Virus record (IMG/VR): IMGVR_UViG_3300021365_000045
Span: 1 to 37,919 of that record
From: a virus
Reading direction: 5' to 3' (one strand)
Length of the DNA stretch: 37,919 bases
Part shown: positions 7,068-35,570 of the stretch, one piece after another
Layout of the letters: each line of letters opens with the position of its first letter
Numbering within the stretch: the stretch's first letter is position 1
Made by a program: the position numbers and the translations under genes
The notes under the pieces: generated by a model
Seen by the model: only the letters and a program-made list of their open reading frames with translations
Databases searched by the model: none
Told to the model about the DNA's origin: nothing

Positions 7068-8175
7068 TCTACAAACACATTGGGACAATGCCACTCTAGA
7101 TTATGATCTAGGAAAATACAATTTCAAACAATGGGCAATTGATGTAATACAGGAAGAATTCCCACAAGTGAAGGAATTAGAAAAAATACATCAACTCCTT
7201 AAACCTAACGAGGTAGTAAAATTACAACAACATGTACAGAATGCTTGTTCTAGAAAAGACTTCATGGAGATGTTTGACGCTTTCACCAAAGAGCACATAC
7301 CATCGAGAATACAAAACAAAAGATATATGATACAGAGACAGGGCACGTTAAGGGTAGTCATACCACAACAGGCCAAAGTAGGAAGGAGACTTCACTTTCA
7401 TCAAGGTATCTTTGTTGGTAATGGCAGAGGTTGTAGAACCATATGGACACCACTTACAAAGGCTGAGAAGTCAAACACAATGTGGATAATGGATCTAGAG
7501 AAGAGTCGAGAAGTTACAAAACAATTCCTAGAAGAAAAATGGGATCTCGAAAAGTTTGAGGCTACTTGCATACAAAATTCTAAACCAGTTGAGCTTGTCC
7601 CAGGACAGAGCCACTTGTTCTTTCAAGAACACATACATGGAAATATCAATAACGAAGAAGGTTACACCAGAGTAAGCATAGACATGAGAATACTGATAGA
7701 GGGTGAAGAGTATGGTAGAAGATTACCTGGAGGCTTTATGCGTATGCCTGGAGACCACAAAGCAGGCGAAGAGTTTGATTATACAGGTAAACATTTCATC
7801 ACATATGCAGGATGGAATAGTAAGTTTGCCAAGAACATTCCACTGCCCATGCAAAGGGGAACAATAGAAAACTATTGTAAAAAATACAACATACAATATT
7901 CGAGTTACGAATTTGAAAATGAGCATTGTGATTGGCAACCAGGACTGGCCCATCACATCGAACAAAAACCAGATGGCATCGTTCTTGCCAGTATGTATGC
8001 AATAACAGACGATAAAAAAAGACGAAATGAACTGTTAAATCTAGCACTTGAAAATAATGTTGAACTGCACTTCGCAAATGAATTGTGTTTCCTTAAAAAC
8101 AAGAAAGACCTTGAGCAAATAAATGATTATCTAAATTTTGCTGTGCCTAAAAAAGGCAAGCACAGTTGGGAATAA
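7057..8175 (+). CDS. Fusion: 2OG-Fe(II) oxygenase-like domain plus LIC12192-type carbohydrate-cluster domain, 372 aa
   Basis: Residues about 85-225 resemble the 2-oxoglutarate/Fe(II) oxygenase of sporadic carbohydrate clusters. A His-rich entry segment RRLHFHQGIFVGNG is followed by WTPL, then a distal His (EHIHGN, about 191-196) and Arg (TRVSIDMR). Residues about 245-360 match the LIC12192-type sporadic carbohydrate-cluster protein: ITYAGWNSKFAKNIPLPMQ, the YC dipeptide, GIVLASMYA and ELHFANE. The two families are normally separate neighbouring genes and here form one polypeptide. The second metal ligand of the usual HxD motif is not obvious (HFHQ). The first ~80 residues are unassigned. A role in modifying an unusual sugar is inferred. 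Confidence 0.72.
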   Translation: MLNDLQTHWDNATLDYDLGKYNFKQWAIDVIQEEFPQVKELEKIHQLLKPNEVVKLQQHVQNACSRKDFMEMFDAFTKEHIPSRIQNKRYMIQRQGTLRVVIPQQAKVGRRLHFHQGIFVGNGRGCRTIWTPLTKAEKSNTMWIMDLEKSREVTKQFLEEKWDLEKFEATCIQNSKPVELVPGQSHLFFQEHIHGNINNEEGYTRVSIDMRILIEGEEYGRRLPGGFMRMPGDHKAGEEFDYTGKHFITYAGWNSKFAKNIPLPMQRGTIENYCKKYNIQYSSYEFENEHCDWQPGLAHHIEQKPDGIVLASMYAITDDKKRRNELLNLALENNVELHFANELCFLKNKKDLEQINDYLNFAVPKKGKHSWE

Positions 8176-8204
8176 GAAACTTGCTTTAAATCTGTTGGGC
8201 GTTT
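8176..8204. terminator. Convergent junction with possible hairpin
   Basis: The + strand oxygenase gene and the - strand gene ending at 8205 converge here. AAGGCAAG at the end of the + gene can pair with CTTGCTTT (one G-U) across a 19-base loop, followed by A/T-rich bases. This could act as a weak terminator for the + transcript. There is no long U tract, so the call is weak. Confidence 0.3.
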
Positions 8205-9257
8205 CTATAGGAAGATGTTTTCCATCTTGTGTTTCTGCTCTCGACTAAACTCGTAAAATCTTTGTTTGTTATATATTAGATCAGGTAGCATGTCTCCATA
8301 CATAGACATTTTATTTTCTGAGGATAGACCAGCCAGAAATTTTAATAAAGAAACGTGATCATTCAACACATCGAGAGAATGTTTGAGGTCTATGTGTGGC
8401 CAGTAATTGTTAAATGTTTTAAAGCCGTTTTTTTCCAACCACCCATATGTTTTTGGATTTCCTTGAATAATGTATGGTCTAAGACCTATCATGGGTTTCC
8501 ATATACGTTCATTCACGAACACCGGTTCCCAATGGTCGAATACCGTTTCAGAACTGATGTAAAGGAAGCATTTTTTCCATACTTCAAGTTTTCCCACAGT
8601 AACCAGATCGTTAGGTATTCCTCCATAATGTGTTGGATTGTTTTGCCCGTCATTCTTGTATGGATCGTGAGATTCATTAAGTGTTATTGGTTCCCATGTT
8701 CTCCCCTCACACCACGCAAAGTGTTCATCGGTCTTTGCTCCCAACGTTATTATGCCATTGTCTAGTAGTCCATGTTTTTTTACTAGATTGGCAAAATCAA
8801 CTCTCCATGCACGTGGTTTACGTTGATAGCACAAGAAGTCCTTGCTGTACTCTTGTAGCATCACTTCCTCGTTTTTGTATTTGGGCATCAACTCGGTACC
8901 TACTATGGCATGGAAGTTCCATTCATACTGACTGTCATCGAACATTCCAATCTTGTAGATATTCTTTATTCCAAATCTTACACACATCTCACTGATATCT
9001 TTTTCCATCAAATACAAAGGATCTATAATTGATAACAAGAATAAATTATCGAACCTTTTATTGTCTCTGAACAATTTCTCTACCTTTGCCCATTCGCCGT
9101 TGTTAAACTGAGACCCAAACCAAGTGGTGTTTATCAATAGATTACTTTTATCTGGAAACTTATTTTCAATCTGTTGGGCAGTCTTGTCAAAAATTGCAAT
9201 CTCCTCCGGACCGTACTGCCACTCTTCGGGAAATGTTGTACCTATTCTCGTCAGCAT
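8205..9257 (-). CDS. Glycosyltransferase-like protein (second copy), 350 aa
   Basis: The C-terminal region FVNERIWKPMIGLRPYIIQG...LEKNGFKTFNNYWP parallels the protein at 5096-6145 (TEKIARPLGTKTPFLIMSS...LRKLGFRSFGKFWDE). This points to a shared GT10-like or related glycosyltransferase C-lobe. The N-terminal half differs. It is translated from the minus strand and its ATG overlaps the stop of the epimerase upstream in the same operon (TAATG), so the two are coupled. It probably transfers a sugar to a phage or host surface acceptor. Evidence is by motif resemblance only. Confidence 0.5.
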   Translation of the reverse strand: MLTRIGTTFPEEWQYGPEEIAIFDKTAQQIENKFPDKSNLLINTTWFGSQFNNGEWAKVEKLFRDNKRFDNLFLLSIIDPLYLMEKDISEMCVRFGIKNIYKIGMFDDSQYEWNFHAIVGTELMPKYKNEEVMLQEYSKDFLCYQRKPRAWRVDFANLVKKHGLLDNGIITLGAKTDEHFAWCEGRTWEPITLNESHDPYKNDGQNNPTHYGGIPNDLVTVGKLEVWKKCFLYISSETVFDHWEPVFVNERIWKPMIGLRPYIIQGNPKTYGWLEKNGFKTFNNYWPHIDLKHSLDVLNDHVSLLKFLAGLSSENKMSMYGDMLPDLIYNKQRFYEFSREQKHKMENIFL

Positions 9258-20221: not shown

Positions 20222-20769
20222 AAAGATTCGCGAAACAGAACAACTGGACGCAAGGTCTCGAGCTGGGCGTGTGGGTGGGAGTTACCACGTTCTGGTTGAT
20301 GAAGAACACCAGTGTGAACATGACCTGCATAGATGCTTGGGAAGTACAGGACGACAACCCAGAGTACGATTGGCAGTACAACAAGAAGCCTGTGTTCCAG
20401 GGAGGCAAGTTGGTAAGGTTGGAAGAATTCAAACACGAGGGACAAGTATGGAATCACAATGCTAACGAGCAAAGATTCCGCGACGATGCAGAACAGTGGG
20501 GAAGTAGGGTGAAGATAATAAAAGGGAGATCTCTCGATGTCCTCGAGCAAATTCCAGACAACAGTATGGACTTCATATTCCATGATTCAGATCACTCATA
20601 TCCTTTCGTCAAGAACGAGATACAAGCATACCTACCCAAACTGAAATCAGGTGGTTACTCCATGGGTGATGACTACAACTGGACTCCTGTAGCACAGTCT
20701 GTGCAAGAAGCATTTGGAGAAAAACACAAAGTCACTGGCAAAGACGTCTGGTACGCTGTTAAGGACTAG
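20200..20769 (+). CDS. Class I SAM-dependent methyltransferase, 189 aa
   Basis: ATG 20200 (MDRYRVIERFAKQ) is preferred over one at 20167, which lies further inside the upstream gene. Motif I is GLELGVWVGVTTFWL (about 19-33). The mid-domain MDFIFHDSDHSYPFVKNEI followed by LKSGGYSMGDDY is characteristic of the Methyltransf_24 type, often linked to sugar O-methylation. The target is unknown. Overlap with the DxD glycosyltransferase gene suggests the two act on the same glycan. It ends against the convergent minus-strand gene, whose stop overlaps it by 4 bases. Confidence 0.8.
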   Translation: MDRYRVIERFAKQNNWTQGLELGVWVGVTTFWLMKNTSVNMTCIDAWEVQDDNPEYDWQYNKKPVFQGGKLVRLEEFKHEGQVWNHNANEQRFRDDAEQWGSRVKIIKGRSLDVLEQIPDNSMDFIFHDSDHSYPFVKNEIQAYLPKLKSGGYSMGDDYNWTPVAQSVQEAFGEKHKVTGKDVWYAVKD

Positions 20770-20975
20770 TCCTCGGATTTCATGCAACCAATTTCTACCG
20801 TTTCAAACGGAATTTTGTATCTAATGAAGCCGTCCATCATCTCGTAGAATCTGTCTGAAGCGGCCTGTTCGCAAGTGATCTGATCCGGGAAAACCTGTTG
20901 TTCACTGTCATTGTACAGGGTACAATTGGGTACACCATTGGTGAGTAGACACATCACTGCAAACATTTTAAACAT
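20766..20975 (-). CDS. Small Cys-containing protein, paralogue of 22317-22529, 69 aa
   Basis: The N-terminus MFKMFAVMCLLTNGVPNCTLY is hydrophobic with two cysteines. The rest has one further Cys near residue 33 (ITCEQAASD) and one near the end (EIGCMKS). It aligns along its length with the protein at 22317-22529 (MWKVLVVICTLGNPCTLF...AECLKAAD...HSCLYV), including all four cysteine positions. It lies 14 bases downstream of the tmRNA region on the same strand and may be read from the same promoter. An exported or disulfide-bonded peptide is possible; the function is unknown. Confidence 0.65.
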   Translation of the reverse strand: MFKMFAVMCLLTNGVPNCTLYNDSEQQVFPDQITCEQAASDRFYEMMDGFIRYKIPFETVEIGCMKSED

Positions 20976-21033
20976 AACACTATTTAAGTGGCCCGTTCTG
21001 TTGCAAGGTGGGCCAGACCCCTGGGATTATTGG

Positions 21034-21105
21034 TTATTACGCCGCTAATCTCAATTCAGACATACCAACTGTTAAGTCAGCAAATCCTAATGCTTTTTTG
21101 TTTGC
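21034..21105 (-). other. tmRNA tag reading frame (22 codons plus TAA TAA)
   Basis: From resume codon GCA at 21105 the frame encodes ANKKALGF, then ADLTVGMS, then ELRLAA, followed by tandem TAA stops at 21034-21039. The start AN and the terminal LAA are hallmarks of proteolysis tags; the final LAA is the ClpX-recognised element in known ssrA tags. Twenty-two residues is long compared with the 11-residue E. coli tag. There is no start codon, as expected for a frame entered by trans-translation. Confidence 0.9.
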
Positions 21106-21190
21106 ATTTAAAAAACAGCCTGATTAGGTCAGTGCCATCACCAAGTTCTCGTAACAAGTTTAGACGTCGATCGATTCCAATAACACCCCC

Positions 21191-21223
21191 GGAAGGGATT
21201 ACATAAGCCACCAAGTAATAAAT
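21191..21223 (-). other. tmRNA intervening segment removed on maturation
   Basis: These 33 bases separate the encoded CCA of the acceptor piece from the 5' end of the coding piece. The CCACCA of the acceptor end can pair with TGGTGG in this segment, forming a precursor hairpin. Known two-piece tmRNAs lose such a segment during processing; that it happens here is inference. Confidence 0.7.
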
Positions 21224-21294
21224 TGGTGGAGGTGGCGAGATTTGAACTCGCGTCTCGTCCGCTTATTAATTGTTAGTCAACAAACTTAAATATA

Positions 21295-21323
21295 ATTATA
21301 CCTTAAGGTTGACGTTTTGTCAA
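21295..21323 (-). promoter_or_regulatory. Perfect-consensus sigma70 promoter for the tmRNA
   Basis: On the minus strand TTGACA (21318-21323) is followed by exactly 17 bases and TATAAT (21295-21300), matching the sigma70 consensus at all 12 positions. The predicted start near 21288 lies just before the acceptor piece. It overlaps the oppositely oriented promoter of the 21345 gene over 15 bases, so the two probably compete for polymerase. Confidence 0.88.
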
Positions 21324-21337
21324 TTATATCATAAAAT
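21309..21337 (+). promoter_or_regulatory. Sigma70-type promoter TTGACG-N17-TAAAAT
   Basis: The -35 is at 21309-21314 and the -10 at 21332-21337 with 17-base spacing. The ATG of the next gene is 7 bases past the -10, so a leaderless transcript is predicted. Its -35 and that of the tmRNA promoter form an inverted pair, TTGAC-GTTTT-GTCAA, which could also be an operator. Confidence 0.72.
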
Positions 21338-21344
21338 AAAGTAT

Positions 21345-21548
21345 ATGCCAAAAAATAGAATATTTAAAATCACAGACGGAACAGAAACCAAAGAAGTTGA
21401 GGCAATGTCGTTCAAGAAGGCAGTGAGATCATTTCAGGGCAGTTCTAAAGCCAAGATGATAACTATCGAGTGGATGACAAAGGGCGGAGAGCTCTTCGTC
21501 AAAGATCAACAGATACCCATGGGTAGAAAGAAAAAAATAGGACGTTAG
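21345..21548 (+). CDS. Small basic phage protein, 67 aa
   Basis: The start ATG 21345 (MPKNRIFKITDGTET) is fixed by the promoter ending 7 bases before it. The protein has an SKKAV-like helix and a C-terminal Lys-rich tail (GRKKKIGR). Its layout (short beta strands, one helix, basic end) suggests nucleic-acid or ribosome association, but no family is recognised. It is divergent from the tmRNA and shares its promoter region, which suggests joint control. Confidence 0.7.
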   Translation: MPKNRIFKITDGTETKEVEAMSFKKAVRSFQGSSKAKMITIEWMTKGGELFVKDQQIPMGRKKKIGR

Positions 21549-22316: not shown

Positions 22317-22529
22317 ATGTGGAAAGTACTCGTAGTCATATGCACCCTAGGTAATCCCTGCACCTTGTTCGAGGAAAATCCTATCAAGTGGTATAGCACA
22401 GAAGCAGAATGCCTAAAAGCGGCTGATGTGAAGGCAATTGGTATGGTAAAAACATTCCAGGATTTCGGCTACCACATTGACAGCGAAGCACACTCTTGCC
22501 TGTATGTGGCACAAAACAACGAAGCCTAG
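22317..22529 (+). CDS. Small Cys-containing protein, paralogue of 20766-20975, 70 aa
   Basis: The N-terminal MWKVLVVICTLGNPCTLF is hydrophobic. Four cysteines sit at positions equivalent to those in the minus-strand protein at 20766-20975. The region between (STEAECLKAADVKAIGM) is helical. Two copies on opposite strands 1.3 kb apart suggest local duplication. Possible roles are exported or disulfide-bonded peptides; the function is unknown. Confidence 0.65.
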   Translation: MWKVLVVICTLGNPCTLFEENPIKWYSTEAECLKAADVKAIGMVKTFQDFGYHIDSEAHSCLYVAQNNEA

Positions 22530-32826: not shown

Positions 32827-33136
32827 AGATTCCCTTATTGGCAATATGGGTAAGTTGATCATAGTGACACCACCTTCTATGACCCGTCCCCGGGATATCA
32901 GTTTTACCATTTTAAATTTAAATGACGAGCAAAAAACATTGTTTACAAATAAACTGAACGAGTTGTTTCCAGAAAATGAAATCACACTCTTTGTTTGGGA
33001 TAAATCGAATGTAGAAGACAGATGGGTGTATGAGGCCAATCTTAACAGTGATTACGTGATCCAAGGAGACACAGACATCACGAAACAAATAGAAACAATA
33101 AAGGCAAAATATGACAGAAGAAAGTTTGATTTGTAA
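32816..33136 (+). CDS. Hypothetical protein upstream of clpX, 106 aa
   Basis: It begins MTDKDSLIGNMGKLIIVTPP and has alternating strands and helices (DISFTILNLNDEQKTLF, EITLFVWDKSNVEDRW). It overlaps the membrane gene upstream by 11 bases and clpX by 26 bases, so it is probably co-translated with clpX. No family is recognised. Its place suggests a possible adaptor or modulator of ClpX, but that is speculation. Confidence 0.65.
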   Translation: MTDKDSLIGNMGKLIIVTPPSMTRPRDISFTILNLNDEQKTLFTNKLNELFPENEITLFVWDKSNVEDRWVYEANLNSDYVIQGDTDITKQIETIKAKYDRRKFDL

Positions 33137-34358
33137 TTTTTGTGGTAAGTCCAGGAAGGACGTCACAAAAATGATCGTTGGCGCCAGCAAGACATCGATC
33201 TGTAACGAGTGTGTGAAACTGTGCGTGGAGATACTAGACGAGGACATAGTCAAGGCCCGTAAGGAGAAACTTTACTCTGGCGACAAGAACATTTTGAATC
33301 CAGTGTTGATCAAAGAACATCTAGATCAATATGTCATAGGGCAGGATGCCGCCAAGACGGTGTTGAGTGTGGCAGTGGCCAATCACTACAAGAGAATAGT
33401 GCAACCACCAATCGACTTCGACCTAGACAAATCCAACGTCATGGTGTTGGGAGCCACTGGTGCAGGCAAAACCTTAATGGCAAGAACAATAGCAAAGTAC
33501 CTGGACGTACCATTCGCAATAGCAGACGCTACAACACTGACAGAATCAGGTTACGTGGGTGACGACGTGGAGAATGTGGTACAGAAACTGTATGCCAATG
33601 CAGGCGGAGACCTAGAAAAGACACAGAAAGGCATAATATTCATAGACGAGATTGACAAGATTTGCAGGAAAGGTGAAAACACTTCTCTGACCAGAGACGT
33701 TTCAGGCGAAGGAGTGCAACAAGGACTACTCAAGATTGTGGAAGGTACAGAATGCAGGGTACCCCCAATGGGTGGTCGTAAACATCCTGATCAACAGACT
33801 ATCACCATAGACACATCAGACATACTGTTCATAGTGGGTGGTGCATTTACTGAGTTAGAAAAACAGATTCGATCAAAACAATCAGGTGGAATGGGGTTTG
33901 GAACAAAACTTAAAGAACAAGACGACAAGAACTACCTGAGTGAAGTTCAACCAGAGGACCTGATCAAATACGGACTGATACCAGAATTCGTAGGAAGGTT
34001 CTCCATGCTTACAAATGTAGATCCACTGAACGAAACACAGTTGATACGTATTCTTACAGAACCCAAGAACGCCATACTGAAGCAAACCAAGTACCTGTTT
34101 GGATTGGACAACATAGACATTGAGTTTACCAAAGAAGCCAAACAGAGCATAGCACGTAAGGCCAAAGAATTAGGAACCAACGCAAGGGGGCTGAAAAACG
34201 TAGTAGACACAGTGGTTCTACCATACCAGTTTGATGCGGAGGAGATGAGAAACAGAGGAGTAACCAAAATACAGATAACTAATGAGGTGGTTGACAAGGG
34301 TGCTGACCCTGTGTTAGTATTTAAAAAAGCAAATGGAATATCAAAAAAACAAAATTAG
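33111..34358 (+). CDS. clpX: ClpX unfoldase, full length, 415 aa
   Basis: ClpX is the AAA+ subunit that recognises tagged proteins, unfolds them and feeds them to ClpP. All parts are present: zinc-binding domain (C8, C11, C31, C34), Walker A GATGAGKT (114-121), pore-1 loop GYVG (147-150), Walker B IIFIDE (175-180), RKH loop (223-225), the ClpP-docking loop as MGFG (261-264, usually IGFG) and sensor 2 NARGLKN. Length matches cellular ClpX (~420 aa). No ClpP gene is seen in this window, so host ClpP is the likely partner. It follows a small overlapping gene and overlaps bS21 downstream by 26 bases. Together with the phage tmRNA it suggests a dedicated tag-and-destroy pathway. Confidence 0.96.
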
Positions 34359-34626
34359 ACCCAAGTTCAAAAAGACAGAGAGACCGTTAGGTTTCCAGGG
34401 CTACTACGTGGAAGTGCGTGAAGGCGAAGACGCCATCAGGGCATACAGGAAGATCAAGAGATGGATCAAGGAAGACAAGTTCATTGACCAGATCAGGGCC
34501 AACAACACTTACCAAAAACCATCAGAGATCAAAGTCGAGAAAGCCAAGGAACGTAGGAAGGTACTACGAAAATTGCGTAGGGAACGTGACAGTTTCATAT
34601 CAATGCGTCCACAAAGAGGCAGATAA
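34333..34626 (+). CDS. rpsU: Ribosomal protein bS21 homologue, 97 aa
   Basis: The core YYVEVREGEDAIRAYRKIKRWI, then NNTYQKPSEIKVEKAKERRKVLRKLRRERDS, follows bS21 (VKVREGESIDRALRRFKKK... EFYEKPSxxRxRK). It has an extra ~22-residue basic N-terminus and a short C-terminal extension compared with the ~60-70 aa bacterial protein. bS21 sits near the 3' end of 16S rRNA beside the anti-Shine-Dalgarno. Phage copies are known in T4-like pelagiphages and large phages. It overlaps clpX by 26 bases and so is made with it. It probably replaces host bS21 on ribosomes to favour phage messages. Confidence 0.9.
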   Translation: MEYQKNKIRPKFKKTERPLGFQGYYVEVREGEDAIRAYRKIKRWIKEDKFIDQIRANNTYQKPSEIKVEKAKERRKVLRKLRRERDSFISMRPQRGR

Positions 34627-34648
34627 TTTTACCAAACACACTCGTAAT

Positions 34649-34676
34649 TTGACATATAGCACATATATGTTATAAT
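34649..34676 (+). promoter_or_regulatory. Sigma70 promoter TTGACA-N16-TATAAT
   Basis: TTGACA (34649-34654) and TATAAT (34671-34676) are both perfect with 16-base spacing. The predicted start near 34683 leaves a ~63-base leader before hsp20. No heat-shock (sigma32-type) promoter is seen. Confidence 0.85.
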
Positions 34677-34682
34677 AAATAA

Positions 34683-34745
34683 AGTTGAAGATTGCTTTAG
34701 ATAGGATCTTCATACATTAACCTTGCTAACAATAGGAGGAAAGCA
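34683..34745 (+). promoter_or_regulatory. hsp20 leader with two hairpins, possible RNA thermometer
   Basis: A first hairpin TGAAGAT/ATCTTCA (34686-34712) has seven pairs and a 13-base loop. A second pairs TTGCT with AGCAA directly before and into the start codon, placing the AGGAGG ribosome-binding site in its loop. A CCT upstream can also pair with part of the AGGAGG. Small heat-shock genes are often controlled by leaders that melt with heat, but such control here is inference. Confidence 0.4.
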
Positions 34746-35195
34746 ATGACAAAACATCTATCTATTTTTAATAACCTAAGACCATACACAGTGGGATTCG
34801 ACGACTGGTTTGATCACTTCGATGCCATGATGGACGACAGTTTCTTCAGGGGGGCTGGCAATTTTCCACCATACAACATAGTGAAAACCGGCGAGAACAC
34901 CTACGACGTTGAACTTGCACTTGCAGGATTTACCAAGGATGACATCATAGTCGAGTACAAGGAGAACTTGCTCACTGTGAAATCAAAACCCAACAAAGAT
35001 CCAGCAGATGAAGTTGAGAAATACGACGACGGAGTGCAACACAGAGGCATCTCAAAGAGAATGTTCACAAGAACATTTACTATTGCCAATGATGTTGAGG
35101 TCAAAGGTGCAGAACTCAAAGATGGTTTGCTTAAAGTGAGCATGGAAAGAATAATTCCAGAGCACAAGAAGGCCAAACTTATCGACATCAAGTAA
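34746..35195 (+). CDS. Small heat-shock protein Hsp20/IbpA family, 149 aa
   Basis: The alpha-crystallin domain spans about residues 38-135. It contains PPYNIVKTGENTYDVELALAGF, HRGISKRMFTRTFTI and ELKDGLLKVSMER, followed by a C-terminal I-x-I type motif (LIDI). It is an ATP-independent holdase that keeps unfolding proteins soluble. Hsp20 is a common accessory gene of T4-like marine phages. It has its own perfect promoter, a structured leader and an AGGAGG ribosome-binding site, so strong expression is expected. It lies between bS21 and clpS in a proteostasis group. Confidence 0.95.
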   Translation: MTKHLSIFNNLRPYTVGFDDWFDHFDAMMDDSFFRGAGNFPPYNIVKTGENTYDVELALAGFTKDDIIVEYKENLLTVKSKPNKDPADEVEKYDDGVQHRGISKRMFTRTFTIANDVEVKGAELKDGLLKVSMERIIPEHKKAKLIDIK

Positions 35196-35209
35196 AGCAT
35201 GAAATGGAT

Positions 35210-35227
35210 GGGGTGGTAAAACACCCC
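35210..35227 (+). terminator. Rho-independent-type terminator after hsp20
   Basis: GGGGTG (35210-35215) pairs perfectly with CACCCC (35222-35227) around a six-base loop. The pairing is G/C-rich and is followed by TT. The U tract is short. It lies 15 bases after the hsp20 stop and just before the clpS promoter, where a terminator is expected. Confidence 0.6.
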
Positions 35228-35234
35228 TTCCAAA

Positions 35235-35262
35235 TTGACAATCGTGTTAGATATGTTATAAT
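35235..35262 (+). promoter_or_regulatory. Sigma70 promoter TTGACA-N16-TATAAT
   Basis: TTGACA (35235-35240) and TATAAT (35257-35262) are perfect with 16-base spacing. The clpS ATG at 35268 is 5 bases past the -10, predicting a leaderless transcript. A second in-frame ATG lies at 35274. Confidence 0.85.
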
Positions 35263-35267
35263 AAGGT

Positions 35268-35570
35268 ATGACAATGACAGATATACAAACACTGACAAAA
35301 GAAAAGATCAAACTAGACGAACCTGGAATGTACGATGTAATTTTCCTAAACGACAACATCACAACAATGGAGTTCGTCGTGAAGGTGCTTAAACAGATAT
35401 TCGGCAAGACACCGGAGCAGGCACAGAACATCACGACAAAGATACACCAAGACGGACAGGGCATCGTTGGCTCGTACACACATGAAGTTGCCGAACAGAA
35501 AGGCATAGAGACAACACTTGCGGCCAGACAGGAGAACTTCCCACTGCAGGTCAAAGTCAAGAAGCAGTAA
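35268..35570 (+). CDS. clpS: ClpS adaptor protein, 100 aa
   Basis: The sequence YDVIFLNDNITTMEFVVKVLKQIFGKTPEQA, then GQGIVGSYTHEVAEQKG, matches ClpS (YxVxLLNDDYTPMEFVxxVL...G..G.YT.E.AE.K). The substrate-pocket residues N-D and the Met in TMEF are conserved. ClpS delivers N-degron proteins to ClpA and inhibits ClpA action on ssrA-tagged proteins. In the presence of the phage tmRNA and ClpX it could steer tagged proteins toward ClpXP; this link is inference. A leaderless start is predicted. Its stop overlaps the next ATG (TAATG). Confidence 0.93.
   Translation: MTMTDIQTLTKEKIKLDEPGMYDVIFLNDNITTMEFVVKVLKQIFGKTPEQAQNITTKIHQDGQGIVGSYTHEVAEQKGIETTLAARQENFPLQVKVKKQ

Follow-up and report, generated by a model that had tools for sequence, protein, structure and literature searches.

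A circularly permuted tmRNA gene with a conserved 22-residue tag on a T4-like marine phage contig encoding ClpX and ClpS

The minus strand of a linear virus record of 37.9 kb (analysed as a whole, and referred to here as the window) contains a complete circularly permuted tmRNA gene of the alphaproteobacterial type. The best explanation of the data is that the gene encodes a functional two-piece tmRNA, carried by a T4-like marine phage, that performs ordinary trans-translation together with SmpB and AlaRS of the host; we place the probability of this at about 0.85.

ARAGORN calls a permuted tmRNA at 20946–21316 (minus strand) with the tag ANKKALGFADLTVGMSELRLAA, and two Rfam covariance models match far above chance. 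RF04321 (tmRNA_permuted) scores 96.2 bits (cut-off 47, E 1.3e-17) at 21073–21287 with the model covered over its full length, and RF01849 (alpha_tmRNA) scores 74.4 bits (cut-off 50, E 1.3e-18) at 20987–21338 and is the best of its clan; related loci give 70–116 bits with RF01849. The standard, beta and cyano tmRNA models gave no match in the window at gathering threshold, overlapping matches of the same clan being pruned to the best, and no Rfam family other than these two was found there above cut-off. A sequence-only reading of this DNA had proposed a permuted tmRNA and a covariance search of the minus strand as the check.

The features are itemized in Table 1, and each lies where it had been placed by that reading. 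The 3′ part of the acceptor is located upstream of the 5′ part with a spacer between them, and this is the permuted order. Following the minus strand from the T-arm, the 3′ strand of the acceptor continues into the encoded CCA, after which the spacer (claimed to be of 33 nt, and measured as such at 21223–21191) leads into the 5′ strand of the acceptor, the tag frame and finally the hairpin. All seven of the proposed acceptor base pairs form, including G3–U70 (21188/21230), which is invariant in 17/17 aligned sequences, so that together with the CCA the stem has the characteristics of an alanine-type acceptor. The tag frame is also as first described, with an alanine resume codon, a peptide ending in AA and tandem stops. 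By homology, the RNA is probably cut into two pieces. Two ORFs of ∼70 aa, at 20766–20975 (minus strand) and 22317–22529 (plus strand), flank the tmRNA region; they look alike by eye and belong to no known family.

Table 1. Features of the permuted tmRNA gene, its promoter region and the Clp-related genes of the window
Feature	Position	Strand	Basis
Permuted (two-piece) tmRNA gene, mature RNA (approximate ends) with spacer	about 20985–21290	-	ARAGORN, RF04321, RF01849, covariation over 17 sequences
T-arm, GCGAG-UUCAAAU-CUCGC	21251–21235	-	Sequence; compensatory changes at 4/5 pairs
Acceptor 3′ strand, CACCUCC	21234–21228	-	Sequence and alignment
Discriminator A	21227	-	Sequence and alignment
Encoded CCA	21226–21224	-	Sequence and alignment
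Intervening spacer, 33 nt, predicted to be removed	21223–21191	-	Sequence
Acceptor 5′ strand, GGGGGUG, pairing 7/7 with 21234–21228	21190–21184	-	Sequence
Tag frame, resume codon GCA, ANKKALGFADLTVGMSELRLAA followed by TAA TAA	21105–21034	-	ARAGORN; tag alignment
3′-terminal hairpin of coding piece, conserved GCAACAGAA	21015–20989	-	Sequence, alignment, structure prediction
-35 box of tmRNA promoter, TTGACA	21318–21323	-	Consensus match; kept in relatives
-10 box of tmRNA promoter, TATAAT (TTAAAT in some relatives)	21295–21300	-	Consensus match; kept in relatives
Palindrome TTGAC-N5-GTCAA, enclosing the -35 boxes of the two divergent promoters	21309–21323		Possible operator
Divergent promoter of small basic protein gene, TTGACG-17-TAAAAT	21309–21337	+	Sequence; relatives
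Gene for 67-aa basic protein, diverging from tmRNA, no known family	21345–21548	+	Stays paired with tmRNA in relatives
Phage ClpX, full length, with zinc domain; may receive tagged proteins	33111–34358	+	Profile and alignment
Phage Hsp20 small heat-shock protein	34746–35195	+	Family match
Phage ClpS adaptor	35268–35570	+	Model match

The structure is supported by covariation. Nineteen related viral loci were retrieved through the neighbouring ParB-like gene, and the tmRNA is present in 17/17 syntenic relatives (L086–L102). One further contig (L104) stops short of the tmRNA site, leaving 18 syntenic loci that cover it, and the remaining one, the very close relative L103, has a copy (8440–8700) from which ∼145 nt are missing, from the spacer to the middle of the tag. 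The covariation alignment comprises 17 phage sequences, which are related, so that the counts are not of independent events. The acceptor, T-arm, connecting helices and terminal hairpin were analysed, and a free structure prediction was also made. Compensatory changes, in which both sides of a pair have altered, are found in 26 of the 35 base pairs tested. Paired cells make up 94.1% of the total, compared with 70.5% in shuffled alignments and 35–49% in slid controls, and the covariation score of 0.637 was reached by none of 500 shuffles, the slid controls giving no more than 0.13. The helices of the tRNA-like domain are among those supported. At least three types of T-loop (UUCAAAU, GGCAGUA and UGCAAUU) and two acceptor variants occur among the relatives with pairing kept in each, and on this evidence the relatives have swapped whole modules (T-loop and acceptor). 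In L097 and L099–L102 the tmRNA is inverted with respect to the ParB-like gene downstream. L099 also has a gene for ribosomal protein bL12 (7937–8305, minus strand; Pfam Ribosomal_L12, E 2e-25) close to the tmRNA and the small basic gene.

The tag is 22 aa in length, with a core ALGFADLTV and an end RLAA that are both kept at the peptide level. In all the 22-codon tags of the loci found through the ParB-like gene the peptide of codons 5–13 (the core) is unchanged, while seven of these nine codons vary synonymously; the variable columns of the tag fall 6, 4 and 14 at codon positions 1, 2 and 3, respectively. Among the relatives, L094 differs in having a tag of 25 aa whose middle is altered. Every tag recovered ends in LAA. 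A degenerate search for the core identified the tag in 46 viral loci whose surroundings resemble a tmRNA, and ARAGORN confirms most of those that were checked. Because these loci were retrieved by the tag, the conservation of their core is in part built in by the way they were found, and the unbiased support comes from the loci retrieved through the ParB-like gene. Taking the compensatory pair changes together with the synonymous changes in the tag core, both the RNA structure and the tag peptide therefore appear to be under selection, indicating that such phage tmRNA genes are kept and not merely carried. Other phage permuted tmRNAs, in L040, L041, L045, L072, L076 and L078, have long tags of different sequence (23–27 aa, e.g. 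ATQRDSMRKNNVLAFVPRFVAPMQMAA).

Directly upstream of the gene is a sigma70-type promoter (TTGACA-17-TATAAT) that matches the consensus at 12/12 letters, and its boxes are conserved in the relatives while the spacer between them varies. The -35 box lies within a palindrome that is exact in the window and in 17/19 related loci examined, again with variation of the spacer letters. Only this conservation carries weight, because a palindrome of this kind is to be expected in the window by chance (1.9 matches expected and one seen, allowing up to one mismatch). It may be an operator, or merely two overlapping promoters. The second arm belongs to the promoter of the small basic protein gene. This ORF starts ∼7 nt past its -10 box, suggesting a message that is leaderless or nearly so. 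In L097 and L099–L101 the inversion takes in both the small basic gene and the tmRNA.

The function can be proposed as follows. A single precursor RNA would be transcribed from the sigma70-type promoter, and tRNA-processing enzymes of the host would excise the 33-nt spacer. This would leave an acceptor piece with CCA at its end, and a coding piece that stays joined to it through the acceptor stem and the helices after that. The host AlaRS would charge the acceptor piece by recognition of G3–U70, and wherever a broken message has stalled a ribosome, host SmpB would bring in the tmRNA. Translation would then resume on the phage tag and terminate at the tandem stops, freeing the ribosome, while the LAA end would mark the fragment for Clp protease. 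The phage would gain by keeping ribosomes free as messages decay in the infected cell. No SmpB was found in 27 phage records and no ClpP in 18, where the absence is weak evidence as nearly all of these records are fragments; both proteins would thus come from the host.

As far as is known, tmRNA tags mostly conserve their ends. The strictly kept middle of this long tag raises the question of what reads it, and the question is made concrete by the phage ClpX and ClpS. The fate of this long tag is uncertain because it lacks the usual alphaproteobacterial core, seen in one bacterial match as ANDNFAPVAVAA. The tmRNA might work normally while its tag serves a special purpose, directing tagged proteins into a phage-controlled route (for example phage ClpX acting on host ClpP) or steering them clear of a host adaptor that recognizes the host tag. 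The peptide-level conservation of the core and end is in keeping with this, as is the absence of the core with an AA end from 385 sampled alphaproteobacterial genomes. The genes for ClpX, Hsp20 and ClpS share the contig with the tmRNA, and lie close together (33111–35570). The phage ClpX is <60% identical to every phage ClpX in the reference collection, and on alignment with solved ClpX structures it keeps the GYVG, RKH and xGF segments. GYVG is the pore-loop segment. From its sequence the protein could use host ClpP. Among the 15 closest ClpX-bearing contigs the tmRNA is present in 13 and ClpS in 12; in more distant ClpX-bearing viral contigs (G016–G045) a permuted tmRNA is found in 12 of 30, an uncontrolled count. 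Against a special purpose, short tags of the ordinary kind (ANDEVYALAA, for example) occur in the permuted tmRNAs of other ClpX-bearing viral contigs, and no ClpX turned up when 23 further contigs bearing the signature tag, all fragments, were searched by its zinc finger. A special role for the tag is on balance unlikely. A general rule that long tags accompany phage ClpX was rejected on the same two observations.

A broader form of this proposal would have a virus-specific tmRNA lineage whose ALGFADLTV core is read by a route other than the usual ssrA one (phage ClpX together with host ClpP being an example), giving the phage control over both the tagging and the destruction of stalled chains, with the divergent promoter shared with the small basic protein as a partner. 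We regard the whole of this as rather improbable. Recognition of the phage tag by the phage ClpX is a candidate on the co-residence of the genes only.

If instead the RNA were a decoy that occupied SmpB, AlaRS or ribosomes and so interfered with the host tmRNA, it would have no need of a tag, yet the tag frame is intact, selected at the peptide level and followed by stops. There is a precedent in mycobacteriophage DS6A, whose tag-less tmRNA is reported to inhibit the endogenous tmRNA (cited in PMC11915505), but for the present gene such a role is very unlikely. Still less credible is that the gene is a functionless passenger decaying after its acquisition from a host. The deleted copy in L103 might be read in that way, and may reflect either natural loss of a dispensable gene or misassembly of the contig; against it are the compensatory and synonymous changes across the relatives, the conserved promoter and the presence of the gene in all intact syntenic relatives.

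The NrdA of the contig is nearest to those of cyanophages and Pelagibacter phage Mosig (68–69% identity), and from these closest matches (Kyanoviridae phages) the contig is assigned to a T4-like marine phage. The proposal that the tmRNA is phage-encoded is thus borne out, by the T4-like marine contig, the covariance match and the presence of the gene in 17/18 syntenic phage loci that cover the site. That the contig is bacterial, and the tmRNA consequently a host gene, can be virtually dismissed: the type of tmRNA is bacterial and the window is a fragment of 37.9 kb, but the T4-like NrdA, the phage Hsp20 family and tail-type genes, the many syntenic viral contigs and the lack of a close bacterial tmRNA in the 385 genomes all point to a phage. 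Attempts to trace the host gave no signal from ClpX, for which matches of ∼50% identity are spread over many phyla, and DNA matches to the tmRNA in 22 of the 385 alphaproteobacterial genomes are short pieces only, of up to ∼40 nt.

Phage permuted tmRNAs had been suggested to be rarely described, and hence this one very novel, but that view is not supported. In the study of Buchholz et al. (2022, PMC9004378), 402 phages gave 133 distinct tmRNAs, of which 53 are two-piece (50 of these from marine or aquatic phages), and a permuted tmRNA is present in 17/47 contigs related to phage Melnitz; early expression of the tmRNA is proposed there. Our covariance search shows that Pelagibacter phages HTVC008M and Mosig also carry one. 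Viral permuted tmRNAs are thus already published, and novelty is limited. The permuted form is established, with its own Rfam model (RF04321). In the tmRNA database, phage sequences number only 79, counting every form (PMC11915505). A blastn search for the present tmRNA in cultured phages gave no match, and in open-licence papers we found neither this tag lineage nor its occurrence alongside phage ClpX and ClpS described. What is new, as far as we have found, is a viral tmRNA clade with a conserved 22-aa tag (core ALGFADLTV), together with phage ClpX and ClpS.

The gene resembles that of Melnitz and related pelagimyophages as an alphaproteobacterial-type permuted tmRNA in a marine T4-like myophage. 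A glutamine riboswitch is reported for the Melnitz tmRNA (PMC9004378), whereas no riboswitch family reaches gathering score in the window. DS6A likewise has a tmRNA-like gene in a phage, but that gene has no tag frame, according to the citing paper, while the present one has a tag under selection. Compared with the alphaproteobacterial two-piece tmRNA of RF01849, the gene order, acceptor, T-arm, helices and 3′ GCAACAGAA element are alike; the T-loop is UUCAAAU in the window and of GGCAGUA type in many relatives, and the tag is longer with a different core. The tRNA-like domain falls throughout within the range of RF04321. HTVC008M and Mosig have short tags (ANFNEYALAA, and GEDNFALAA as called) and no match to the ClpX and ClpS models, unlike the present lineage with its 22-aa tag, ClpX and ClpS. 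The few phage tmRNAs described are joined here by a coherent phage lineage.
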